From Plantactinospora alkalitolerans (GTDB lineage: Bacteria; Actinomycetota; Actinomycetes; Mycobacteriales; Micromonosporaceae), in the NCBI RefSeq assembly GCF_015690345.1, contig NZ_JADPUN010000093.1, positions 1 through 44,724 of the forward strand: a stretch of DNA of 44,724 nucleotides. The letters run 5' to 3'. The translations under genes and the position numbers were made by a program. The notes under the pieces were generated by a model. It saw only the letters and a list, made by a program, of their open reading frames with translations, was not told the origin of the DNA and did no database searches. The first letter of the stretch is position 1. Each line of letters opens with the position of its first letter. Shown piece by piece: positions 9,835 through 41,933 of this stretch.

Positions 9835-10271
9835 TTGGCATCCTCCTCGACGACGGCCGCCGCGTTCAGGTAGACGATCGTCTGCCGGCTGGTCACCACC
9901 GGGGCGCCCGAGGCAGCGTCCACGCATTCGATCGCGAGGGTGAGGTACGTGTGCCGGCCCCGATCGACGATGTCCACGACGTACGGGCTGCAGTCCACGA
10001 CGTCGCCGCTGGCGACCCGCCGGTGGAAGTCGTAGTCCTGTCCGGCGTGGACGACCGGACCCGACCCGCCCAGCTCGGCGTCCTCGCGGAGCAGCCGCGC
10101 GCCGTACATCACCGTGAAACAGGCGGCGAACATGTTCGGAGCGACCAGTGCGGCACCTGGCACGTCATTGAGCCGGTAGCCGGTCGCCGCGGCGTATTCC
10201 TCGATTTTGACCCGGCTCACCTCGTAGCGGTAGCCCGCATACCGGTGACCGACTCTGCCGTTATTGATCAC
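9831..10271 (-). CDS. MaoC-like N-terminal hot-dog protein (non-catalytic partner)
   Basis: A 146-aa protein resembling the N-terminal half of double hot-dog (FAS1-like/MaoC_dehydrat_N) dehydratases: VGHRYAGYRYEVSRVKIEEY, then APNMFAACFTVMYGARLL, then VHAGQDYDFHRRVASGDVV. The last stretch is the typical VHGGQDFEFHRPL-like strand. The catalytic GD..N..H motif seen in the adjacent gene is absent. The GTG at 10271-10269 is chosen because GGAAGGGA lies at a good distance upstream and a nearby ATG is closed by a stop within four codons. Its 3' end overlaps the catalytic MaoC gene by 4 bp, so stoichiometric co-translation of a heteromeric hydratase is expected. Confidence 0.82.
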   Translation of the reverse strand: MINNGRVGHRYAGYRYEVSRVKIEEYAAATGYRLNDVPGAALVAPNMFAACFTVMYGARLLREDAELGGSGPVVHAGQDYDFHRRVASGDVVDCSPYVVDIVDRGRHTYLTLAIECVDAASGAPVVTSRQTIVYLNAAAVVEEDAK

Positions 10272-10296
10272 GCATTGTCCCTTCCTACCGTGTTGG

Positions 10297-11364
10297 TCAG
10301 ATGTGCGGACGCGGGGGCCGGCCGCGCGGTTGCTGCCCGGTCCGGGCGAGCAGCCGTTCGCCGAGTTCGGTTTCCAGGTCGCGCCGAAGTCCGTACCTCG
10401 CGGCGAAGGTTGCGCCGCGCTTGAGCCAGACGTGCAGCGGGTGCTCCCAGGTGAAGCCGATGCCGCCATGCGTCTGCAGGCAGTGCCGGTCGGCCTCGGC
10501 AAAGGCCCGCCTGGCCGCCACGCTCGCGCAGGTGATCGCGACCGGAGCGGCCGGATCACCCTCCGCCACGTCGCAGGCGGCGCCCCACACCGCGCTGCGC
10601 GCGAACTCCAGCTCGACGTACGAGTCGGCCAGCCGGTGGCGCACCGCCTGGAATGCGCCGATCGGCCGGCCGAACTGCTCGCGCAGCCTCGCGTACGAGA
10701 TGCTCTGCTCCAGCAGTCCGCCCGCGACTCCCACGAGGTAGGCCGCGGCACCGAGCCGGCCGCGATCGAGCACCCGCAGCCCGTCCGTCAGGGGCAGCGG
10801 CTGCGCCGCCGAGCCGCCCCCGTCCGGGCCGCGCGCGATCCGGAAGGACCGCTCCAGCCTGTCCTGTGTGGACACCCGTAGCGTCGCACCGAGCCGGTCG
10901 GCGGCACACAACAGGTCGGATCCGTCGGCCGGCACCACGACATACGACGCGACATCGAGGTCCGGGCCGCGCAGCGTCGCGTCGACCGCGGCCGCGACCC
11001 GGTCACCGTGCAGCGTCGCGGCCAGCGCCGGCGCCCACTCCTGGCCGAGCGCGGCCAGAGCGGGCGCCGCGATCCAACTCGTCTCGACGACCGGGCCGGG
11101 CAGCAGTGCCCGGCCGGCCTGTTCGGTCAGCACCACGAGGTCGGGTACGGACAGCCCGAGCCCGCCGGCCCCCTCGGGCACCGCCGCACCGAGCAGGCCC
11201 GTTCCGGCCAGCTCCGTCCAGCGACCACGGTCGAAGTCGCCCTCCGGGCCGGCGTCCACCCGCTCGTCGCGGTCCGGCCGGAAGAACATCCCTGCGGCGG
11301 AGGCGGCAAGTTCGCGCTGCTCGGCGGAGGGCGCGCGCAGCCGAACCTGCTCTGCCGTCAACAC
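10297..11364 (-). CDS. Acyl-CoA dehydrogenase, small subunit type
   Basis: A 355-aa acyl-CoA dehydrogenase-like flavoprotein. The C-terminal domain is recognisable: YARLREQFGRPIGAFQAVRH, DVAEGDPAAPVAITCASVAARRA-like helices, then THGGIGFTWEHPLHVWLKRG. The N-terminal half is degenerate compared with canonical enzymes, with a poorly conserved FAD/substrate loop. Start is GTG at 11364 or TTG at 11361, both overlapping the stop of the upstream dehydrogenase gene. In heterotetrameric acyl-CoA dehydrogenases of sterol and cyclic-acid degradation, two adjacent short genes encode unlike subunits that share active sites; this pair fits that plan. The likely step is alpha,beta-dehydrogenation of the CoA ester made by the ligase in the same operon. 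Confidence 0.85.
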   Translation of the reverse strand: MLTAEQVRLRAPSAEQRELAASAAGMFFRPDRDERVDAGPEGDFDRGRWTELAGTGLLGAAVPEGAGGLGLSVPDLVVLTEQAGRALLPGPVVETSWIAAPALAALGQEWAPALAATLHGDRVAAAVDATLRGPDLDVASYVVVPADGSDLLCAADRLGATLRVSTQDRLERSFRIARGPDGGGSAAQPLPLTDGLRVLDRGRLGAAAYLVGVAGGLLEQSISYARLREQFGRPIGAFQAVRHRLADSYVELEFARSAVWGAACDVAEGDPAAPVAITCASVAARRAFAEADRHCLQTHGGIGFTWEHPLHVWLKRGATFAARYGLRRDLETELGERLLARTGQQPRGRPPRPHI

Positions 11365-12473
11365 CGGGGCAACCCGAGAATTCGATCGGCCACGACATTG
11401 CGCTGGATCTCTGCCGTGCCGCCGTAGATCGACCCCGCCCGGGAGTGCCAGTAGTCGAGGAACTCGGGTGCCCGCTCGGCGAGCCGTTCGTCACCGAACA
11501 ACTCGACACCGAGCTGCACGATGTCGGCGTCGAGCCGGGCAGCGAAGAGCTTCACCAGGCTCGACTCCGCGCCCACCGGCTCGCCGGCCAGGCGCGCCCC
11601 GACCCGCCGACACGTGTACGCCTGGAAGGCGGACAGCCGGGCGTACAGGTCACCGAGGTCGCGAACCGTGCCGGGCGAACCACCGGCCTCGACGATGTCG
11701 CCGACGAGCGCGTCGAGCCGACGCCGGGTGCGTACCGGGGCACCGGCGTCCGGCCCGCGTTCGAAGGACAGCAGTGTCATCGCGACATCCCAGCCCTCGT
11801 CCCGTGGCCCGACCAGGTTCCCGGCCGGCACCGCCACCGAGTCGAAGAAGACCTCGGCGAAGCCGGTCTGCCCGTGCGCCTGCCGCACCGGGCGCACCCG
11901 AACGCCGGCACCACGCATGTCGATCACCAGGCAGCTGAGGCCCCGGTGCCGCCCGCCCGGCTCCCCGGTACGGGCGAGCGTGAACATCCGGTCGCCGAAC
12001 CGCCCGTACGTGGTCCAGGTCTTCTGGCCGTCCACTACGAACCGGTCGCCGTCCCACCGGGCTCGGGTCCGCACCCCGGCCAGGTCACTGCCGGCGTCCG
12101 GTTCGGAGAACCCCTGGCACCAGATGTGGTCGGCGCGGAGCATCCCGGGCAGCCACCTCCGGCGCTGCTCGGCCGAGCCGTAGCGGATCAGCGTCGGGCC
12201 GAGGAAACGCTGCGCCGGGCGGGTGATCCGCACCGGAGCGCCGGCGAGTTCGTACTCCTCGGCGAAGATCGCCTCGTGCAGCACGTCGCCACCACGCCCG
12301 CCGTACTCGGTCGGCCAGGAGATCCCGCTGTAGCCGGCGTCGTACAACCGCCGTTCCCAGTCGCGATGCGCCCCGAACCCGTCGTCGGTGTCCGGGTCCG
12401 GTAGATCACCGGCCGGTACGTTTCCGGCCAGCCACGCCCGCACCTGCCGGCGGAACTCCTCGTGGTCGGTCAC
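11358..12473 (-). CDS. Acyl-CoA dehydrogenase, larger subunit type
   Basis: A 371-aa acyl-CoA dehydrogenase. Hallmarks include GYSGISWPTEYGGRGG near the N-terminus, the FAD/substrate loop WCQGFSEPDAGSDLAGVRT, DGQKTWTTYG, and the C-terminal YGGTAEIQRNVVADRILGLP. The last motif has Gly where short/medium-chain enzymes carry the catalytic Glu (YEGT), so the base must sit elsewhere or in the partner subunit. The GTG at 12473-12471 overlaps the ligase stop as GTGA and is preferred over an ATG at 12503, which would overlap the ligase by 34 bp. Together with the downstream gene it probably forms an alpha2beta2 enzyme. Confidence 0.88.
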   Translation of the reverse strand: MTDHEEFRRQVRAWLAGNVPAGDLPDPDTDDGFGAHRDWERRLYDAGYSGISWPTEYGGRGGDVLHEAIFAEEYELAGAPVRITRPAQRFLGPTLIRYGSAEQRRRWLPGMLRADHIWCQGFSEPDAGSDLAGVRTRARWDGDRFVVDGQKTWTTYGRFGDRMFTLARTGEPGGRHRGLSCLVIDMRGAGVRVRPVRQAHGQTGFAEVFFDSVAVPAGNLVGPRDEGWDVAMTLLSFERGPDAGAPVRTRRRLDALVGDIVEAGGSPGTVRDLGDLYARLSAFQAYTCRRVGARLAGEPVGAESSLVKLFAARLDADIVQLGVELFGDERLAERAPEFLDYWHSRAGSIYGGTAEIQRNVVADRILGLPRC

Positions 12474-29416: not shown

Positions 29417-31747
29417 TCAGACCAGCTCGACAGACAATCGTGGGTCTACGCGGTCCTGCTCGACCGGGTCTACGCGGTCCTGCTTGACCTGGACCGTGGC
29501 CAACTGCCCGGCCCGGCCGGCTCGGTCGAGCAGCTCCGCCGCACGCCGCCAGGTGTCCCGTGCCGCGTCCAGGTCGCCCGCATCCGCCAGTACGTCGCCG
29601 AGGTGGCCGAGGGTGACGCCCTCTTCCGGCTGGTTGTACGCCGCGCCGTTCCGGTCGCTCAGCCCCAGATGCAGGTCGAGGGCCTCGCGGCAGTAGCCGA
29701 CCGCCTCCTGGTGCTGGCCGAGCTGGCTGAGGCTCCAGCCGATGCTGTTCAGCGCCCTCGCCTGCCCGGCCGGATGGTCGGCGGCCCGGTAGCCGTCCAG
29801 GGCGAGCCGGCTGTGCCGCAACACCATCTGGTGCTGGCCGGACTGGTCGAAGACCTCGGCCAGGCTGAGCTGGGTGTGCGCCTGCCCGATCCGGTCGCCG
29901 AGTTCGGCGTACCGGTCCAGCGCCAGCCGGAGGTGGGCGAGCGCCGTCTCCCCGCGGTCGAGTCGCAGGTGGACACGGGCCAGGCCGCGGTGGGCAACTG
30001 CCTGCTCCCGGCGGTCGCCGCTGCGCTGGGCGGCCCGCAACGCGGCCTCCTCCACCAACACCCAGTCGGGCCACTTCCCCGCCTGATACAGGTAGGTCGA
30101 GAGCGTCCTCGCCAACCGGTGGGTGTACAGATCGAAGCCGGCGTCCTCCTGAGCCACGACGGCCAGCAGCACCCGGTGCTCGGCGTTGAACCAGGTCAGC
30201 GCCTGTACGGTGTCCGCCACCTCCTCCGGTGACGCGCCGGCCGACGGCTCGGGTGGTTCGAGCACGGCCCGGTACGGATCCACCAGCCGAGCGGCCCGGT
30301 CGGCGGTGCGCAGATAATGGTCCAGCATCCGGTGGGTGGCCGCCCGTTGGTCTTCGGCGCTGTCCAGTTCCTCGGTCAGCTCCGCCGCGTACACCCGCAG
30401 CAGGTCGTCGCAGACGAACCGGCCGGGCCGGTGCTCGGCGAGCAGGTGCGCGTCGGTGAGGTCCCGCAGCAACCGACGCGCCTCGCGGGCCGACACCTCC
30501 GCCAGACTGGCGGCGGCCGCGGTGCCGATGTCCGGACCCGGGTGCTTGGCCAACAACCGGAACAGCCGGGCGGCCGGCGGATCCAGACCGCGGAACGACC
30601 AGGAGAACACTCGGCGCGCGTCCACCGCCTGATCGCCGCCGGCAAACGCGTCCAGACCGCGGGCCCCGGTCAGCTCGCCGGCCAGGTCGGCGAGCGGAAA
30701 GCCGGGATGGGTGGCGGCCCGCGCGGCCACGATCGCCAGGACCAGGGGCAGGCCGGTACAGGCGGCGATGATCCGATCCACGGCTTCGGGCTCGGCCCGG
30801 ACGCGGTCCGGCCCGACGCGGTCCGCGAGCATGCTGCGCGACTCGGCCGGGGTGAGCAGGTCCAGTCGCAGTGGGTGGGCACCCTCCACCGCGATCAGAC
30901 TGGCGAGCCGATCGCGGCTGGTCACCAGGGCCAGGCACCCCGCCGAACTGGGCAACAGCGGCCGGACCTGCTCGGCGTTGCGCGCGTTGTCCAGCACCAC
31001 CAGCATCCGCTTGCCGGCGAGCAGGCTGCGGTACAGGCCGATCTGCCCGTCGAGGGTCGTCGGAATCTCCGACGGGGGCACCGCGAACGCCGCCAGGAAG
31101 CCGCGCATCGCCTCGGCAGGCGTCAATGGTGCGCCGGGACCGTAGCCGCACAGGTTGACGTGGAGATGTCCGTCCGGGAAGCGGCCCGCCGCCCGGCGCG
31201 CCCAGTGCAGAGCGAGCATGGTCTTGCCTATTCCAGCCGTCCCGCTGATCGCGGAGACCACCCCGGTGCCGCCCGGTGCGACGGCCGCCAGCGCAGTCCG
31301 ATCCAGCGCTGCCAGCTCAGCCGTCCGCCCGGCGAACTGCTGCGGGGCCGCCGGCAGCTGTCGTGGTACGACCGGTCCCGGGGCGTGCCGGTCAATCTCG
31401 GTCCGGGCGCGAGCGGCCAGCCGGTCGGCGGCCAGTGCACCCTCGACCGCGCGCAGCATCCGCACGTGCCGGGTGGACCACTCGCTCAGGTCGACCGCCT
31501 CCGCCGGCAGCGGTGCCCCGGCCCGGTCGGCGTGCGCGGCGCAGGCGTTCACGAACGACGCGACGAACTCCCAGTCCGGCAGCGACCGGACGTTCAGCTT
31601 GTCGCTGATCGTGGAGCGGGGCAACGGATGCGGCAGGTTCGCGGTGAGGAACACCACTCTGTTCAGTGAGGGCTCGCCGGCTCGGCGCCGCAGCACCTTC
31701 AGCTCGTCGACGAACTGGATGATTGCCGTACGTCCGGCTATGGTCAT
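29417..31747 (-). CDS. NB-ARC/TPR regulator with N-terminal XRE-like domain
   Basis: A 776-aa STAND-type protein from the ATG at 31747-31745, preceded by GGAGGGACG; a GTG start 39 bp further up is possible. The first 75 residues (IIQFVDELKVLRRRAGEPSL, then RSTISDKLNVRSLPDWEFVA) match the degenerate helix-turn-helix often fused to NB-ARC in actinomycetes. The NB-ARC core has P-loop GTAGIGKT at 169-176, MLVVLDNARNAEQVRPLLPS and a winged-helix region (DLTDAHLLAEHRPGRFVCDD). TPR units fill the C-terminus. Unlike the protein encoded at 21647 it lacks the SARP activator domain. It is on the same strand as the secreted protein and exporter genes and directly upstream, so it may regulate them. Confidence 0.9.
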   Translation of the reverse strand: MTIAGRTAIIQFVDELKVLRRRAGEPSLNRVVFLTANLPHPLPRSTISDKLNVRSLPDWEFVASFVNACAAHADRAGAPLPAEAVDLSEWSTRHVRMLRAVEGALAADRLAARARTEIDRHAPGPVVPRQLPAAPQQFAGRTAELAALDRTALAAVAPGGTGVVSAISGTAGIGKTMLALHWARRAAGRFPDGHLHVNLCGYGPGAPLTPAEAMRGFLAAFAVPPSEIPTTLDGQIGLYRSLLAGKRMLVVLDNARNAEQVRPLLPSSAGCLALVTSRDRLASLIAVEGAHPLRLDLLTPAESRSMLADRVGPDRVRAEPEAVDRIIAACTGLPLVLAIVAARAATHPGFPLADLAGELTGARGLDAFAGGDQAVDARRVFSWSFRGLDPPAARLFRLLAKHPGPDIGTAAAASLAEVSAREARRLLRDLTDAHLLAEHRPGRFVCDDLLRVYAAELTEELDSAEDQRAATHRMLDHYLRTADRAARLVDPYRAVLEPPEPSAGASPEEVADTVQALTWFNAEHRVLLAVVAQEDAGFDLYTHRLARTLSTYLYQAGKWPDWVLVEEAALRAAQRSGDRREQAVAHRGLARVHLRLDRGETALAHLRLALDRYAELGDRIGQAHTQLSLAEVFDQSGQHQMVLRHSRLALDGYRAADHPAGQARALNSIGWSLSQLGQHQEAVGYCREALDLHLGLSDRNGAAYNQPEEGVTLGHLGDVLADAGDLDAARDTWRRAAELLDRAGRAGQLATVQVKQDRVDPVEQDRVDPRLSVELV
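29442..29489 (-). repeat. 24-bp tandem duplication at the NB-ARC gene 3' end
   Basis: Two 24-bp units (29442-29465, 29466-29489) differ at one base and encode QDRVDPVE/QDRVDPRL-like octapeptides at the extreme C-terminus. Probably slippage. Confidence 0.75.
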
Positions 31748-31969
31748 CGGCTCGCGTCCCTCCACCATTGTGGAGGCCAGCGTCACAGTCCGGCTTCATC
31801 GAAGTCGCATCGGTTCGCTCATCGGTCCAGCTCGCCGGCCGATGACTCGGTGCGGAAGCTTCGTCGACCGGCGGGGCGTACCTGCTGTCGCGGTCACGGA
31901 TCAGGTACCTGAACTGAGTGACCCGGTCACCATCGTCCACACGGTGCCCGCCGGACCAGGTAACCCAGG

Positions 31970-32210: not shown

Positions 32211-32678
32211 TCAACGACCGCCGTCCGACGAGTTGTGGCTCGACATCCGGCGAACGACCACACCGAGCAGGGTGTCGGCGCTGAAGTAGCCGGCACGCCG
32301 CGAGTCGAAGCTGCGCAGAATGTTGTCGCCGAGGATGACGAACCGGTCGGCGGGCACTCTTCCGTCGTCAGTCTCGGGCAGCGCCGGCATCTCGGAAGGC
32401 ACCGGTTCCCCCGGAAGGGCGACGGCTCGCTTCACCAGCCAGGGCGGGTTTTCCGGCATCGGCAGCCCTCGGGCCGGTGACTCGATGACGACCAGTTGGC
32501 CCCGGCGGACACGACGCAGCGGCACTCGGCGGACCAGGACCCGGTCTCCGGGGCGCAGGGTCGGCAACATGCTTTCTCCGGACACGGTGACCACCACGAA
32601 GGTGCGGCGCAGCAGCAGGACGGCGACGGCGACGGCGACAGCGATGCCGATGCCGATGCCGAGCCAGGGGACGCTCAC
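32211..32678 (-). CDS. Small S26-family signal peptidase I
   Basis: A 155-aa membrane-anchored protease. An N-terminal TM segment (WLGIGIGIAVAVAVAVLLL) is followed by SGESMLPTLRPGDRVLV with the nucleophile Ser (about S36), WLVKRAVALPGEPVP with the general-base Lys (about K83), and the C-terminal box FVILGDNILRSFDSRRAGYF. All signal peptidase I boxes are present in a minimal form. The GTG at 32678 overlaps the stop of the 42-aa ORF as GTGA and is preferred over a TTG 18 bp upstream. It lies in an operon with the TlpA-like gene and downstream of a cysteine-rich peptide gene. A dedicated leader peptidase for these peptides, cleaving after A-x-A, is the favoured inference. Confidence 0.87.
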   Translation of the reverse strand: MSVPWLGIGIGIAVAVAVAVLLLRRTFVVVTVSGESMLPTLRPGDRVLVRRVPLRRVRRGQLVVIESPARGLPMPENPPWLVKRAVALPGEPVPSEMPALPETDDGRVPADRFVILGDNILRSFDSRRAGYFSADTLLGVVVRRMSSHNSSDGGR

Positions 32679-32803
32679 CTCACCACCACGGCCCAACCGT
32701 CATCGAGCTCGTCGCGGCACCGGTCGAGGCGTACCACATGGCCGAGGTCGGGCACGGAGCCCCGCGGCCCGACCGTGGCGGCGGTTGGTGTCACGTCAGG
32801 CAC
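32675..32803 (-). CDS. 42-aa ORF coupled between TlpA-like and S26 genes
   Basis: The GTG at 32803-32801 overlaps the TlpA-like stop (32798-32796) and the TGA (32677-32675) overlaps the S26 GTG as GTGA. The predicted protein (GHVVRLDRCRDELDDGWAVV near its end) is acidic with one Cys and no signal or TM segment. Overlapping starts at both ends argue for a real, translationally coupled gene, perhaps a small scaffold or binding protein. A second in-frame GTG (32794) would give 39 aa. I do not recognise it. Confidence 0.5.
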   Translation of the reverse strand: MPDVTPTAATVGPRGSVPDLGHVVRLDRCRDELDDGWAVVVR

Positions 32804-33350
32804 TGGCACCGACGGTGGACAGGTCGGGTATCGCGGAGCCGCTGGCGAGTACCACGCCGGCGCTGTCGACCAGCGCGAACGCCGGGTACGCGTCAACGCG
32901 GAACGCCGTGGGCAACTCGCCGGTCGGCAACTGCCGTACGACCCGCGCCACCGGCGTGAGTTCGTCGAGATAGGGCATCACCTCGCCGTCGCCGTCGTCG
33001 CCGACCACCACGGCGAGCACCCGGTCGCGGCCACCCGGGTGCTCCCGCGCCCGCCCGGCGAACACCGGTCGCTTGGCGGTACACGGCTGGCAGCCGAGCG
33101 AGAAGAAGCCGACCAGCAGCAGGCCGTCGTGCTCGGCACTCGAGACCGGTGTGCCGTCGACGGCCGTCGCGGCGTACGCCCCGACCGACCGGCCCGGGCC
33201 GAGCATGTTGCGGCCGGCACGGGCGTCGTCACCCAGTTGGTCGAGGATCGTGGTGTGCTCGCGCAGCCGCCGGACCACGCCGAGGGTGAACACCAGGTTG
33301 ACGAGGGCCACCACCGCGATCAGGACGGTGAAGGGCACCAGAATATTCAT
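32796..33350 (-). CDS. TlpA-like membrane-anchored thioredoxin-fold protein
   Basis: A 184-aa protein with one N-terminal membrane segment (ILVPFTVLIAVVALVNLVFTL), a linker and an extracytoplasmic thioredoxin fold. The active site is GCQPC (C87, C90) in VGFFSLGCQPCTAKRPVF, and the cis-Pro region is in VDAYPAFALVDSAGVV. GAGGAG lies upstream of the ATG. TlpA-type proteins reduce or isomerise disulfides outside the membrane. The neighbouring peptide genes encode 12-Cys and 8-Cys products, so a role in their disulfide formation or proofreading is the obvious inference. The membrane partner often paired with such proteins (MauE/DoxX or VKOR type) is not evident in the window. Confidence 0.87.
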   Translation of the reverse strand: MNILVPFTVLIAVVALVNLVFTLGVVRRLREHTTILDQLGDDARAGRNMLGPGRSVGAYAATAVDGTPVSSAEHDGLLLVGFFSLGCQPCTAKRPVFAGRAREHPGGRDRVLAVVVGDDGDGEVMPYLDELTPVARVVRQLPTGELPTAFRVDAYPAFALVDSAGVVLASGSAIPDLSTVGASA

Positions 33351-33698
33351 GCGGCTCCTCGGGATGACGCTGACGGATGGGCCGGGATGCCGGCCCGGGC
33401 GTGCAGAGGCCGTCCAGATGGACGGCGGCCGCGCCGGCCATCACGGCCACCGGCGCTTCCCAGGTGCGGCGGGAAGACCGGCACTGGCCACCGCGATTGG
33501 CACACCGCCTGGGCGATCAGCAGCACCACGTGCCACACCGGACGGCCAACGTCGCGCGGTTGCTTCGTGGTGCCGAATCAGACGTGGTCTCGCCCGAACC
33601 GCGCCGCAGTGCCAGCGCGACGGCCCGCAGGCCGGTCGGCAGGCGGCGGCGTGGGGCTCGGAAGGGCACCCTCAGCGCGATCATGTGTTTGAGAGCGA
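33351..33698. other. 348-bp gap between Cys-rich peptide 1 and the TlpA-like gene
   Basis: Minus-strand frames here are short and Arg/Pro-rich; one has a hydrophobic patch (HVVLLIAQAVCQSRW) but no supported start. A decayed membrane gene (for example MauE-type) cannot be excluded. No clear terminator was found. Confidence 0.4.
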
Positions 33699-33902
33699 TC
33701 AGCAGTACTGCGATGGGTATCCGCAGCCGGAGCAGGTCGTGCTGGTGCAGTTGCAGTTGGTACAGCAACGCCGGCAGCCGCCGAAGCCAGGGCTGACGCA
33801 CGAGGTGTAGTAGCAGTCGTTACACGGGCAGGCGCCCGCCGTGGTCTTCGGCACGAATGCCGTAACCAGCCGATCGGCCAGGCTTCCCAGCATCTTCGTC
33901 AT
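33699..33902 (-). CDS. Cysteine-rich secreted peptide precursor 1 (67 aa)
   Basis: A 67-aa product with a strong ribosome binding site (GGAGAGGAG) and an ATG at 33902. Residues 1-24 form a Cys-free amphipathic leader (MTKMLGSLADRLVTAFVPKT followed by TAGA). The core, residues 25-67, has 12 Cys (25, 27, 30, 35, 43, 46, 47, 50, 52, 57, 60, 67) with YTS, a CCT and a TTCSGC motif and C-terminal Cys. The leader is shared with the divergent gene at 34190 (GSLxDRL...FVPKT.A.AC), so the two are paralogues. The A-G-A before Cys25 satisfies the -3/-1 rule of signal peptidase I. Even Cys number fits disulfides. No classical hydrophobic signal is seen. RiPP-like, but no modification enzyme is visible; the family is not one I recognise. 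Confidence 0.8.
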   Translation of the reverse strand: MTKMLGSLADRLVTAFVPKTTAGACPCNDCYYTSCVSPGFGGCRRCCTNCNCTSTTCSGCGYPSQYC

Positions 33903-34189
33903 GGCCGTTCTCCTCTCCGCCGCATCCCCGGGCCGCGGCCCCGTGAGCGCATCCGACGTGCTGATATCGATATGGAATTCGCTATCCGTGGTCCGAGTGA
34001 TTCTGATCGTGACCCTACCGATCTTCCTGGTGATGACGGTAGGCGTTCGCCCGTCCGCGTTCGTACGAATCCGTTCGGGTTTTCCGGACGATTTCGAACG
34101 GTCCCGAACGACACGACGGCTTCTCAACGAGGTCGTCGATCGGGTTTACTCAATTCCTGATCACCTCTGTTCTCCCATAAGGAGTTTTC
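33903..34189. promoter_or_regulatory. Divergent control region of the two Cys-rich peptides
   Basis: This 287-bp region separates the two precursor starts. It contains perfect palindromes ATATCGATAT (33964-33973) and TTCGTACGAA (34060-34069), an inverted repeat CCTACCG/CGGTAGG (34014-34020, 34037-34043), and five GTTCG/CGAAC half-sites within about 65 bp (34044-34109). The sequence CCGGACGATTTCGAACG (34084-34100) recurs with one change at 36779-36795 upstream of the exporter. No canonical -35/-10 pair stands out. Confidence 0.6.
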
Positions 34190-34369
34190 ATGCGGCACAT
34201 CGGTTCGCTCGGCGATCGGTTGCTCAGCTTGTTCGTACCCAAGACCGTCGCGGCCGCCTGCGCGGTCGGATGCAGTTACACCAGCTCGGGTTGTGGGCCG
34301 GGCAAGGTGCGGCAGTGCTGCACCGACTCCACCTGCCGGACCACATGTGGCGGCTGTTTCGTCAACTAG
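34190..34369 (+). CDS. Cysteine-rich secreted peptide precursor 2 (59 aa)
   Basis: A 59-aa product from the ATG at 34190, preceded by AAGGAG at good spacing. The leader (MRHIGSLGDRLLSLFVPKT plus VAAA, residues 1-23) lines up with that of precursor 1. The core has 8 Cys (24, 28, 35, 43, 44, 49, 53, 56) and shares with precursor 1 a C-x2/3-C-x-Y-T-S start, a CCT and a TTCxGC ending; it stops FVN instead of Cys. A-A-A precedes Cys24, again a signal-peptidase-like site. It is followed by a strong terminator and then by the convergent ABC exporter gene. The clear homology between two divergent tiny genes, each with a ribosome binding site, is the main evidence that both are real. Confidence 0.82.
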   Translation: MRHIGSLGDRLLSLFVPKTVAAACAVGCSYTSSGCGPGKVRQCCTDSTCRTTCGGCFVN

Positions 34370-34389
34370 TCGTTTGCCGTCGCGTTGCT

Positions 34390-34435
34390 GTCGGCGCCGT
34401 GCTCGGGACGGCGCCGACGTGACCGTCGGCGCCGT
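34390..34435 (+). terminator. Terminator with two mutually exclusive hairpins
   Basis: GTCGGCGCCGT (34390-34400) pairs perfectly with ACGGCGCCGAC (34408-34418) over 11 bp around a 7-base loop. A second copy of GTCGGCGCCGT (34425-34435) can pair with the same middle arm around a 6-base loop. It lies 20 bp after precursor 2. The rest of the gap to 34601 shows no supported gene. Confidence 0.75.
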
Positions 34436-34601
34436 CCGGCGGTCGCGGGTGTTCACTGTGAGGCTCCCATCCGTGGGCGGGGCCACCCGGTGGACTCCGG
34501 AGGCCGGCGTGGCCGAACCACACGAGGTCGTAGGCTTCCCGTACCGACCGACCTGTGCGGGCCGTCGGTCAACCGAAATGGTCACCGACCGCGCGAGGCC
34601 G

Positions 34602-36521
34602 TCATTCCGGCGGCTCGTTCTGATAGCCCGCGGCCTGCATGTTGAACAGGCGGGCGTACAACCCGCGGGCTGTCATCAGTGTGAGGTGATCGCCCTGTTC
34701 CGCCACCTGGCCGTCAGAGAGGACGACGATGTGTTCGGCGTCGCGGACAGCGCTGAGTCGGTGCGAGATCAGCAGGCTGGTCTGCCCGTCGCGGTACTTA
34801 CGCAACGACGAGTAGATCTGGTATTCGGCCTCGGCGTCCAGTCCGGCCGAGGGTTCGTCGAGGATCATTAGGTCGCGTCGGTCGCGTAGGAACGCACGGG
34901 CCAGCGCGAGCCGCTGCCACTGGCCCCCCGAGAGCACCACTCCGGTCTCGGGGTTGCCCTTCTCGGATTCCATGAAGAAGATCCGGGACAGCAGGGTCCG
35001 GTATCCGTGCGGCAATGCCGTCAACGTGTCATGGATACCGGCGTGCCGAGCTGCCTTCTCGATACGTGCCAGGTCGTCGAGGCTCTCGAGGTCGCCGACT
35101 CCGACGTTTTCCGCCGCTGTCATGTCGTAGTGCATGTAGTCCTGGAAGACAGCGCTGATCCTGCGGCGTAGATCCGCCACGTCCACCGTCCGGATGTCCA
35201 CACCATCCCAGGTGATCGACCCCCGGGTAGGGTCGTAGAAGCGGCAGAGCAGCTTCACCAGGGTGGACTTTCCGGCGCCGTTCAACCCCACCAGGCCGAG
35301 CGCCTGGCCGTGTGGGATGTACAGGTCGACGCCGCGCAGTACCCAGGGATGCTCGTCGGAGTAACGGAACCACACGTCACGCAACTCGACGCCCCGGCGC
35401 AGTACCGGCAGATGCTGCGGCACGTCAGCCCCGGGAAGGTCCGGCCCGGTGGTGGTCACGGTGAGATAGTGGTCGAACAGCAGAAGCGCCTGGTGGGAAC
35501 GGGCGACGTCGCCCGCGATGGAGGTCAGGGCCGCCTGTACGCCCGCGACTGCGGCGATGAAGATGGCGATGTCGCCGACGGTGAGCCCGCCCTCCTGGGC
35601 GGCACGGACCGCCCACAGCAGACCGGCGCCGGACACCACCGTCGCGATCAGGCTCAACCCGGCCTGTACGACGACCTCGTGCCGATCGACCGCCCGCTTC
35701 GCCGAGTTGGTGGTTCGGCGATCAGCCAACATGCGGCCACGCAGGAACGGCCCGATTCCGAACAGCCGCACCTCCTTGGCGGCCTCGACGCTGGACAACA
35801 GTTGGGCGTAGAACAGTTCCCGCCGCTCGGCCGGCCCGATGTCCCAGAACATCCGGGCCCGTCGGCGGGATAGCGTGATCTCGCCGGCCAGCGTCGGAAT
35901 TCCGCCGACGAGAACCAGTCCGGCCATGATCGGACTGAGCAGAAGCAGCGAGCCAAGGAACCCGGAGAGCGTGATCGCCGACCGGACGACGCCGAGAAGC
36001 CCCTCCACGGTCTGGTTGGGTGCCATCTCGCCTGCCCGCTGAGCCAGGCGCATCCGGTCCAGGAAGTGCGGATCCTCGAACCGCGGCAGTCCGACGAAAC
36101 GGTCGACCGCGGTGTACAGGCGGTCCTGGGCCAACAGTCCGACGGATCGTTCCAGCTCACCCCGGAGGTATTGGGCGAGGTGCGGAACCGTCCCGGCGAC
36201 GATCCCGACCGCGGCGAGACCGGCACCGAGCGCGATCACCATGGACAGTTCGGTGTCGTTGACGAGCCGGTCCAGTACGAGCTTGGTGAGCCAGGCGGCA
36301 GCCACCGGCACGATCCCCGCGGTGAGCGTCAGCGCGGCGCACCCCGCGAGCACACCGGGCGCCGCCTTCGCGGCCAACAGCAGGGCGGCAGTCAGCCGCC
36401 GCGTCGTGCCGTAAGCCGCGGCGGGTGGGCCGGCGGGCGAGGCACCGCTCGAGCGGTCGCTCCATGCCTGGGTGGTGCCCTCGCCGTCATCTGGCGGAGC
36501 AACGTCGGAGGACCCGTTCAT
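34602..36521 (-). CDS. ABC exporter with fused TM and ATPase domains, peptide-type
   Basis: A 639-aa half-transporter that should dimerise. About 40 hydrophilic residues precede a six-TM ABC exporter domain (LTLTAGIVPVAAAWLTKLVL, GFLGSLLLLSPIMAGLVLVG and others). The ATPase has Walker A GLNGAGKST near residue 416, Q-loop AVFQDYMHYDMTAAENVGVG, signature LSGGQWQRLALARAF, Walker B DLMILDEPSAGLD and H-loop LLISHRLSAVRDA. There is no C39 peptidase domain, so leader removal must be done by another protease, consistent with the nearby S26 enzyme. It converges with precursor 2. Export of the cysteine-rich peptides is the favoured role; lipid or drug export is the alternative. Confidence 0.88.
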   Translation of the reverse strand: MNGSSDVAPPDDGEGTTQAWSDRSSGASPAGPPAAAYGTTRRLTAALLLAAKAAPGVLAGCAALTLTAGIVPVAAAWLTKLVLDRLVNDTELSMVIALGAGLAAVGIVAGTVPHLAQYLRGELERSVGLLAQDRLYTAVDRFVGLPRFEDPHFLDRMRLAQRAGEMAPNQTVEGLLGVVRSAITLSGFLGSLLLLSPIMAGLVLVGGIPTLAGEITLSRRRARMFWDIGPAERRELFYAQLLSSVEAAKEVRLFGIGPFLRGRMLADRRTTNSAKRAVDRHEVVVQAGLSLIATVVSGAGLLWAVRAAQEGGLTVGDIAIFIAAVAGVQAALTSIAGDVARSHQALLLFDHYLTVTTTGPDLPGADVPQHLPVLRRGVELRDVWFRYSDEHPWVLRGVDLYIPHGQALGLVGLNGAGKSTLVKLLCRFYDPTRGSITWDGVDIRTVDVADLRRRISAVFQDYMHYDMTAAENVGVGDLESLDDLARIEKAARHAGIHDTLTALPHGYRTLLSRIFFMESEKGNPETGVVLSGGQWQRLALARAFLRDRRDLMILDEPSAGLDAEAEYQIYSSLRKYRDGQTSLLISHRLSAVRDAEHIVVLSDGQVAEQGDHLTLMTARGLYARLFNMQAAGYQNEPPE

Positions 36522-40446: not shown

Positions 40447-40681
40447 TTGTCTGCGAATGGATTACCACTGGCGAACAACAGACTGTTGAAACCGTCGCTA
40501 CTCTGCACCACGGCCGTACTGAGCACGACCGCCCTGGTAGGCACATCGCCGGCGCTCGGCGCCGAAGCCGCACAGCAGCCGGACCTGCCACCGGCACTCG
40601 CTCCGATGACCGCGATGTACGAGACGGTCGACTGCGATCCCGGCGGCACCACCGCCACGGATGCGGCGCTGGCAGCTAAGG
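40447..40681 (+). pseudogene. 5' fragment of a secreted protein gene, interrupted
   Basis: From a TTG the frame encodes a signal peptide (KPSLLCTTAVLSTTALVGTS then PALGA) and about 40 further residues (PPALAPMTAMYETVDCDPGG). It then runs into an IS256-type transposase fragment in another frame near 40680. The mature protein cannot be assigned. It is likely a secreted protein truncated by an insertion and later deletion. The true start is uncertain; a later TTG (40488) would give a compact signal peptide. Confidence 0.5.
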
Positions 40682-40885
40682 AGCTACGGGGCTTCGGTGT
40701 CGAAGGAGACGATCTCGCGGATCACCGACAAGGTGGTCGAGGAGATGACCGGCTGGTCCCACCGACCCCTCGACGAGATCTATGCGGCGGTGTTCGTTGA
40801 CGTGATCGTGGTCAAGGTCAGGGATGGGCAGGTCGCGAACCGGCCGTTCTACGCCGCGATCGGGGTCACCCTCGACGGCGAGGAG
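40680..40885 (+). mobile_element. IS256-family transposase fragment
   Basis: The frame reads YGASVSKETISRITDKVVEE, MTGWSHRPLDEIYAAVFVD and RDGQVANRPFYAAIGVTLDG, a central part of Mutator/IS256 transposases including the first DDE Asp region. Both ends of the transposase are gone and no terminal repeats were seen. It joins the truncated secreted protein on its left and the repeat protein gene on its right. Confidence 0.85.
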
Positions 40886-40892
40886 CCAGCGG

Positions 40893-41933
40893 TCACGGAG
40901 TCAGCAGTCGGAACGTGGCGGTGCCGGTGGAGGCGAGGTACGGATCGAGTACGACGGTCCAGGTGCCGGTGACGCCGAGCGTGTAGTCACCGTAGGTCGG
41001 GCCGGCGTTCATGGCGAAGACACCGACCTGGTGGCCGCTGGGCGAATAGAGACGCATGCTAGCGCTGCCCGTACCCCAGCTCGAAGCGCCGACGTCCAGG
41101 GTGATGTGTTGCCCACTGACACCGGCGAAGGTGTAGGCGGCGTTCTGACCTCGGGAGCTGATGGTGACACCGGTGGAGGTACCGGGGGTGAGCGTCCCGC
41201 CGATGATGTCGGTGGCGAGCGTGAACGTGGCGGTGCCGGTGGAGGCGAGGTACGGATCGAGTACGACGGTCCAGGTGCCGGTGACGCCGAGCGTGTAGTC
41301 ACCGTAGGTCGGGCTGGCATTCATGGCGAAGACACCGACCTGGTGACCGCTGGGCGAATAGAGACGCATGCTAGCGCTGCCCGTACCCCAGCTCGAAGCG
41401 CCGACGTCCAGGGTGATGTGTTGCCCACTGACACCGGCGAAGGTGTAGGCGGCGTTCTGACCTCGGGAGCTGATGGTGACACCGGTGGAGGTACCGGGGG
41501 TGAGCGTCCCGCCGATGATGTCGGTGGCGAGCGTGAACGTGGCGGTGCCGGTAGAGGCGAGGTACGGATCGAGTACGACGGTCCAGGTGCCGGTGACGCC
41601 GAGCGTGTAGTCACCGTAGGTCGGGCTGGCATTCATGGCGAAGACACCGACCTGATGGCCGCTGGGCGAATAGAGACGCATGCTAGCGCTGCCCGTACCC
41701 CAGCTCGAAGCGCCGACGTCCAGGGTGATGTGTTGCCCACTGACGCCAGCGAAACTGTAGGACACGGATTCTCCGATGACGGCGATCGTGGCCGTCGTGG
41801 CGACGCCCGACGTGAGCGGAATCGGGTCGGCTGCCGGGCGCGCGACTGGCGGGGGTACGGCGTTGGCTGGCCCGGCGAGGGCCAGCGCGGCCAGCGCCGA
41901 GGACAAGGTGAGCACGATGAGACGGCGCAACAT
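40893..41933 (-). CDS. Secreted protein of near-identical PPC-like repeats
   Basis: A 346-aa secreted protein. The signal peptide (RRLIVLTLSSALAALALAGP then ANA) is followed by a short Pro-rich linker and three copies of a ~104-aa beta-rich unit (AGVSGQHITLDVGASSWGTG, SASMRLYSPSGHQVGVFAMN, YGDYTLGVTGTWTVVLDPY). These resemble bacterial pre-peptidase C-terminal domains, which often decorate secreted enzymes. No catalytic domain is present. The last unit ends abruptly in TATFRLLTP, 7 bp from the IS256 fragment, so a longer protein may have been truncated. AGGGAGAAG is a good ribosome binding site. Only a handful of substitutions separate the copies. Confidence 0.82.
   Translation of the reverse strand: MLRRLIVLTLSSALAALALAGPANAVPPPVARPAADPIPLTSGVATTATIAVIGESVSYSFAGVSGQHITLDVGASSWGTGSASMRLYSPSGHQVGVFAMNASPTYGDYTLGVTGTWTVVLDPYLASTGTATFTLATDIIGGTLTPGTSTGVTISSRGQNAAYTFAGVSGQHITLDVGASSWGTGSASMRLYSPSGHQVGVFAMNASPTYGDYTLGVTGTWTVVLDPYLASTGTATFTLATDIIGGTLTPGTSTGVTISSRGQNAAYTFAGVSGQHITLDVGASSWGTGSASMRLYSPSGHQVGVFAMNAGPTYGDYTLGVTGTWTVVLDPYLASTGTATFRLLTP
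40911..41760 (-). repeat. 312-bp tandem repeats, about 2.7 copies
   Basis: Copies begin at 40911, 41223 and 41535; the third is partial (to about 41760). The copies are nearly identical at nucleotide level including synonymous positions, indicating recent duplication or active homogenisation. Confidence 0.9.

Follow-up and report, generated by a model that had tools for sequence, protein, structure and literature searches.

A locus of Plantactinospora alkalitolerans as a probable copy of an actinomycete cassette for disulfide-rich secreted peptides

Whether two small, cysteine-rich genes and three neighbors resembling redox, protease, and export genes make up one system, and what that system would produce, is the question raised by contig NZ_JADPUN010000093.1 of Plantactinospora alkalitolerans (Micromonosporaceae; assembly GCF_015690345.1). 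The stretch analyzed (positions 1 to 44,724; 44,724 nucleotides, called the window here) contains two short open reading frames (ORFs) encoding putative precursor peptides, P1 and P2, together with ORFs predicted to encode a TlpA/ResA-like thiol-disulfide oxidoreductase, a small S26 peptidase, and an ABC exporter. A preliminary description, made from the DNA letters, had presented these as an unrecognized secretion locus for two disulfide-rich peptides, perhaps a two-component bacteriocin or signaling pair. Comparisons with related genomes indicate that the locus is probably one representative of a cassette by which actinomycetes make and secrete disulfide-rich ribosomal peptides, with export, cleavage, disulfide formation, and function all predicted.

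Two homologous precursors with Cys-free leaders and with 12 and 8 Cys residues had been described at this locus, and both their coordinates and their relationship were confirmed. In searches of the whole 9.2-Mb host genome, P1 as the query retrieved P2 (54% identity, E 8.8e-10) and P2 retrieved P1 (56% identity, E 4.7e-8), a similarity that, on sequence comparison, is more than chance. The two genes lie head to head with 287 bp between them, and direct reading of the DNA placed a Shine-Dalgarno-like sequence ahead of both, with AAGGAG immediately 5' of the P2 ATG. P1 is also nested in a longer 142-amino-acid (aa) TTG frame; its start is taken here as the ATG at 33902, which gives 67 aa. Neither P1 nor P2 was matched by any Pfam or NCBIfam model at E ≤ 1, and a profile of the precursor family gave 0 matches in the PDB at the same threshold. 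Between P1 and its closest relative (L009, genome G102), the proportion of synonymous differences (pS) was 0.58 and that of nonsynonymous differences (pN) was 0.21, with 12 of 12 core Cys residues kept versus 16 of 28 other core residues. Across 53 related precursor pairs (55 to 98.5% identity; nonindependent, and with a few doubtful ORFs from loci L054 and L058 among them), pS exceeded pN in 52, and 458 of 485 Cys cells were kept versus 1,015 of 1,646 other core cells. The excess of pS over pN and the retention of Cys therefore favor ORFs of the P1/P2 type as real genes; codon-level constraint, which the preliminary description had proposed as a check, was found.

Searches with P1 and P2 produced matches in 14 of 151 and 13 of 249 genomes, respectively, the host included in each. 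One of the weakest matches, which lies within a 370-aa frame of genome G234 (E 9e-4), is probably spurious, because the only thioredoxin match in that genome is a generic one. In an alignment of 30 precursors, D10, P18, and A22 were invariant and R11, A24, and C35 nearly invariant, with the conserved D-R in mid-leader. The 30 sequences on which the precursor profile was trained had been found via P1 and P2, and the leader statistics that follow lean toward that pattern; Cys parity was not a selection criterion. After removal of frames of >110 aa and merging of identical proteins, V/A/I/L/F-P-x3-A-x-A was found at the leader end of 86 of 91 distinct precursors, within a typical leader of L-G/A-D-R-L-L-x3-V-P-x3-A-x-A, and the 5 precursors lacking the motif were excluded from further counts. 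Among the 86, leaders were 23 or 24 residues long in 76 and Cys-free in 85. Cores had a median length of 40 residues and contained 4 to 12 Cys, the number being even in 80. The precursors thus combine a conserved leader with a variable core, as in ribosomally synthesized and posttranslationally modified peptides (RiPPs). An A-x-A directly ahead of the core is a signal-peptidase-I-type site. A Sec signal peptide was considered and rejected, as the leaders had no hydrophobic h-region before A-x-A when judged by Kyte-Doolittle hydropathy: the mean was <2.0 over every 12-residue stretch in 85 of the 86 leaders, and the longest uncharged run had a median of 7 and a maximum of 21 residues.

Co-occurrence of the genes was assessed from both precursors and thioredoxin-like genes as anchors. 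A precursor, a TlpA-like gene, an ABC gene, and an S26 gene were found together in 13 of 20 fetched precursor-anchored neighborhoods. For the thioredoxin-anchored test, three cassette TlpA sequences were aligned and scanned against a one-genome-per-species collection, which produced 33 loci. All 26 actinomycete loci (L108 to L133) held a precursor, together with ABC in 22, S26 in 20, and the membrane protein MauE in 19, and none of the seven distant thioredoxin loci (L134 to L140) held a precursor, ABC, S26, or MauE gene. A reversed-sequence control gave a single match with E of <1 and none with E of <0.05. The training set of the precursor model included three of the 26 precursors (Asanoa, Rhizocola, and Longispora), and the thioredoxin query includes the Asanoa gene, which was found again as L108; L111 and L115 share one genome, and L110 is from a metagenome-assembled genome. 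A further 20 loci around TlpA copies, three of them host loci already known to bear precursors, comprised 14 with a precursor (weak in L154, E 3.9e-3) and six without. Over 56 distinct TlpA-bearing loci, some of which had been fetched on account of their precursor, a precursor was present in 50, ABC in 47, S26 in 46, MauE in 34, and precursor, ABC, and S26 together in 40. Protease and exporter genes of the kind that accompany RiPP precursors were therefore co-encoded in most loci. That precursor, TlpA-like, S26, and ABC genes form one system, as had been proposed, is strongly supported by these gene neighborhoods, by the precursor found in all 26 thioredoxin-anchored actinomycete loci, and by paralogous copies in the host genome.

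The same neighborhoods bear on whether P1 and P2 act jointly against other bacteria as a two-component bacteriocin. Such a pair is favored by the two homologous precursors standing head to head, and two or more precursors were also present in 7 of 50 precursor-bearing fetched loci, the window excluded (L050, L053, L054, L058, L123, L153, and L159), with the extra precursors of L054 and L058 being weak matches (E 4.5e-4 to 6.3e-3), most of them with a clear leader motif. However, exactly one precursor was found in the other 43 loci, and the nearest cassette (L052, genome G102; TlpA 75% identical) has a relative of P1 and no second precursor, so an obligate two-peptide system was rejected. In addition, no conserved immunity gene was seen among ORFs of ≥90 aa near cassettes or among the 30 best window-L052 protein matches, the latter making the classical bacteriocin reading mildly weaker. 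Joint action of the two peptides is accordingly considered very improbable, the pairing put forward in the preliminary description was not upheld, and P1 and P2 more plausibly serve as separate substrates of one machinery.

The genes of that machinery (Table 1) are all on the minus strand, with the ABC gene lying past P2 and followed by P1, the TlpA-like gene, and the S26 gene; P2 is the sole plus-strand member. The TlpA-like protein was modeled by AlphaFold as a long N-terminal helix, probably a membrane anchor, and a thioredoxin domain (pLDDT 89). By sequence it had a Pfam match only below the cut-off, and its model matched PDB structures of the DsbE, ResA, StoA, and CcmG type; its CxxC was conserved in 56 of 56 aligned loci. 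The S26 peptidase matched PF10502 (E 1.2e-20) and TIGR02227 (79.3 bits; cut-off, 47), and its catalytic Ser and Lys were conserved in 47 of 47 aligned loci. For the ABC exporter, Pfam gave no match to C39 (E ≤ 1), and its relatives within related cassettes were mostly 44 to 67% identical. The earlier assignment of all three flanking genes, including an exporter free of C39, was thereby borne out. By best hits, the window TlpA is nearest to that of L052 and the window S26 is nearest to those of L058 and L052, whereas the window ABC is nearest to Streptomyces cassettes (61 to 67% identity, versus 54% in L052), and the locus may be a mosaic assembly as far as best hits, rather than a tree, can indicate.

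Table 1. Features of the window, with coordinates in window positions
Feature	Position	Strand	Details
P1 precursor	33699..33902	minus	67 aa, 12 Cys, all after residue 24
P1 leader	33831-33902	minus	MTKMLGSLADRLVTAFVPKTTAGA; Cys-free
P1 core	33702-33830	minus	43 aa, 12 Cys
P2 precursor	34190..34369	plus	59 aa, 8 Cys, all after residue 23
P2 leader	34190-34258	plus	MRHIGSLGDRLLSLFVPKTVAAA; Cys-free
P2 core	34259-34366	plus	36 aa, 8 Cys
TlpA/ResA-like thiol-disulfide oxidoreductase	32796..33350	minus	184 aa, active site C87-Q-P-C90
Small S26 (signal peptidase I type) peptidase	32211..32696	minus	N-terminal hydrophobic segment; aligned catalytic Ser42 and Lys89; start ambiguous, 32696 (TTG) or 32678 (GTG)
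ABC exporter	34602..36521	minus	639 aa, fused membrane and ATPase domains; PF00005, E 2.1e-29
NB-ARC/TPR protein, AfsR/HaaT type	29417..31786	minus	Downstream of S26; below NCBIfam cut-offs
Predicted secreted protein	40893-41933	minus	346 aa, mostly near-identical repeats, three visible in translation
Mutator-family transposase fragment	40661-40972	plus	PF00872

The host genome (9.2 Mb, 441 contigs) contained eight precursors at six places, namely, two in the window, two on C33, and one each on C311, C219, C69, and C19. A TlpA-like gene was present within 1 kb of the precursor at each of the six places, and six of the seven cassette-type TlpA copies of the host lay within 1 kb of a precursor. 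The seventh set, on a 7.8-kb contig (C243), comprised S26, MauE, TlpA, and ABC genes with no detected precursor. The TlpA profile (E ≤ 1e-25) had matches in at least 77 of 200 genomes of the family, across 29 of 44 genera, and in at least 15 of 296 genomes of the class, the host included in both; these are lower bounds, with 17 (family) and 11 (class) candidates scored per genome. The precursor profile matched at least 2 of 396 genomes of the phylum, host included, an undercount with 15 candidates scored per genome. Assembly G079 (14.1 Mb, 10% contamination) contained 17 TlpA-like cassette genes, one interrupted by a stop codon and one cut at a contig end. On a mobilizable linear plasmid of Streptomyces sp. 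NBC_00376 (L167; NZ_CP107962.1), precursor, TlpA, ABC, and S26 genes adjoin transposases and a group II intron, a setting in which horizontal spread is possible.

In scans that reached close relatives, cassettes were found only in actinomycetes. This distribution, the several paralogues in some genomes, and the lack of a conserved immunity gene among the proteins compared are consistent with cell-surface or developmental peptides, that is, disulfide-locked structural parts of hyphae or spores and not antagonists, likened in spirit to SapB and the chaplins. However, a patchy spread through the family and variable cores both misfit a conserved structural role, and this explanation is considered rather unlikely. 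The mature peptides are probably outward facing, for example, in antagonism of microbes or in signaling, as suggested by cores that differ widely at their non-Cys positions and by the presence of multiple distinct cores in several genomes.

In the mechanism proposed for the cassette, P1 and P2 would be translated as precursors bearing a short leader, which the dedicated ABC exporter would recognize to carry the precursor over the membrane independently of Sec. The membrane-bound S26 peptidase would then cleave after A-x-A, leaving a core that starts at or near the first Cys, and the membrane-anchored TlpA-like oxidoreductase would oxidize or isomerize the core Cys residues, with MauE as the likely electron partner in many relatives. 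Up to 6 disulfides in P1 and up to 4 in P2 could form in this way, and the mature products would be compact miniproteins of 43 and 36 residues released extracellularly.

Disulfides in the cores are predicted from the even Cys numbers and from the TlpA and MauE genes. MauE (PF07291, 83.9 bits versus a cut-off of 27) was the one further frequent cassette gene in clustering of ORFs of ≥90 aa near cassettes, and no other frequent modifying enzyme was seen in that clustering. It sits between the precursor gene and the TlpA gene in nine chromosomal loci of Streptomyces (L111, L113 to L118, L128, and L129), and the host genome contains five MauE genes above the cut-off, one of them within the C243 set. 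No lanthipeptide, YcaO, radical SAM, or lasso enzyme was found by Pfam among 25 of the window's ORFs besides P1 and P2. The earlier suggestion that disulfides may be the only modification fits both the parity of the cores and the absence of another frequent enzyme among those ORFs. In L054 and L058, a second, divergent MauE/TlpA/ABC set at ~11.2 to 14.8 kb faces the main cassette and adjoins additional precursor-like genes that form a subtype with longer cores and an unchanged leader end.

The reverse redox role was also weighed. TlpA/ResA-type proteins frequently work as reductants, and a TlpA-like protein of this kind could hold Cys residues reduced in metallothionein- or chalkophore-like peptides that bind Cu or Zn, for which the C-x-C, CC, and C-x-x-C motifs common in the cores would be suited. 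Against metal binding are the aromatic residues often present in the cores, the varying Cys spacing, the even Cys number in 80 of 86 precursors, and MauE in many relatives, which suggests oxidation, although the part that MauE plays in the disulfides of methylamine dehydrogenase is termed speculated in the passages of PMC7794033 that concern it. Metal-binding products are considered very unlikely here.

Several observations weigh against a disulfide-peptide cassette as described. Seven of the 20 precursor-anchored loci (L057, L059, L061 to L064, and L066) had no TlpA-like or S26 gene within ~10 kb; three of these showed only distant ABC matches (29 to 32% identity), and no close ABC relative was found in any of them. 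No precursor was detected in 6 of the 56 TlpA-bearing loci, where a hand pattern for missed precursors gave implausible frames only. The host place C69 had no S26 match, and its TlpA gene was detected by profile only. The core Cys number was odd in 6 of 86 precursors, and the AlphaFold model of P1 (pLDDT 60) gave no confident core fold. No MauE profile match was found anywhere in the window, and no conserved immunity gene was seen in the comparisons above, which makes a bacteriocin less likely. A decayed MauE gene at 33350-33700 was considered and rejected, the profile having no match in the window.

The loci without neighboring cassette genes are those that the preliminary description had regarded as a possible refutation. 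Such homologues exist, as noted, and the refuting observation was in part made, although the genomes concerned (G079, G013, G032, and G045) hold TlpA-like copies elsewhere (E 2.1e-47 or better); use of the machinery in trans by cassette-less precursors is therefore possible. Within one of these loci (L063; G013:C2:881701-901700), four precursor-like genes with 6, 6, 7, and 4 Cys stand in tandem at 10032-11409 with no adjoining cassette genes, and a TlpA-like copy lies on another G013 contig. A broader proposal, put forward tentatively and at somewhat short of even confidence, is that actinomycetes possess a large class of Sec-independent, ABC-exported, S26-trimmed, TlpA/MauE-locked secreted miniproteins with hypervariable cores of 4 to 12 Cys, comparable to defensin or venom libraries, with up to 17 cassette TlpA genes per assembly and, in some genomes, scattered precursors sharing machinery in trans. 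Overall, the preliminary interpretation was strongly supported with respect to one system, was consistent with the data with respect to disulfide modification, was not supported with respect to a two-component product, and was right only in part in calling the locus unrecognized; the A-x-A leader end, the paralogous host cassettes, and MauE in relatives were not included in it.

The NB-ARC/TPR protein downstream of S26 is possibly a regulator of the cassette and a putative member of it. Its relatives (E ≤ 1e-20) occurred in 28 of 66 fetched neighborhoods, or 25 of 63 without duplicates, counts for which there is no background rate for comparison. Farther away, the near-identical repeats of the 346-aa predicted secreted protein suggest a recent tandem duplication.

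If the proposed cassette is correct, its recognizable leader and fixed gene set would give access to the many little-studied disulfide-rich peptides of soil actinomycetes, a large pool unnamed in the family libraries in that P1 and P2 have no Pfam or NCBIfam model. The export logic would be one in which an ABC exporter and an S26 peptidase process an A-x-A leader of non-Sec type, where C39 and a double glycine are the usual pair, and TlpA- and MauE-type proteins would be paired with very small substrates.

The locus had been called unrecognized, which held insofar as no characterized product or member of the P1/P2 family was found in the literature (open-licence papers). Related candidates had, however, been listed: in the passages of the decRiPPter study that deal with them (PMC7794033, 2020), three Streptomyces candidate RiPP families with mauE are given, one also with mauD, every one with a precursor of ≥8 Cys, as computational candidates, with S. 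viridosporus T7A among the example strains. The window precursors, with 12 and 8 Cys, reach that Cys number, but MauE, which accompanies TlpA in 34 of the 56 related loci, is not among the window genes. These candidates probably belong to the P1/P2 family, likened by gene content and not by precursor sequence, because L117, from S. viridosporus NRRL 2414, combines a 10-Cys precursor of that family with MauE, TlpA-like, and ABC genes. The terms S26, thioredoxin, and redoxin do not occur in the main text of PMC7794033, and its section 7 and the passages drawn on here describe no leader, A-x-A site, or MauE-less cassette. The peptide of PMC13252029 is, from the part of that paper considered, a different, transmembrane RiPP.

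Among characterized systems, the MauD and MauE proteins of methylamine utilization are paired thioredoxin-like and membrane redox proteins, as in the MauE-bearing relatives, and the window is without MauE. SodX, the nickel-superoxide dismutase maturation peptidase, is likewise of small size and of the S26 family, and it cleaves the leader off a small protein; the window S26 scored 42.1 bits against the SodX model (TIGR02754), under its cut-off of 63.25, and its best model was signal peptidase I. Pediocin and sublancin loci combine a small precursor, an ABC exporter, and a thioredoxin-like oxidase, and a small precursor, an ABC exporter, and a thioredoxin-like protein are likewise common to the window. 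The exporters of pediocin and sublancin include a C39 peptidase with cleavage after a double glycine, whereas in the window no C39 match was found, the leaders end in A-x-A, and the S26 peptidase is a separate protein. A GG/GA-type site was not found ahead of the cores, the P-x3-A-x-A leader end (typically V-P-x3-A-x-A) of 86 of 91 precursors standing there instead; the P1 leader ends in T-A-G-A, with a lone GA, and the P2 leader ends in A-A-A, so GA is not common to both. The P1/P2 cassette is best read as a widespread, experimentally uncharacterized, disulfide-rich RiPP-like secretion cassette, and what is new relative to known leader-directed, ABC-exported disulfide peptides is that an S26 peptidase and an A-x-A leader replace C39 and the double glycine.

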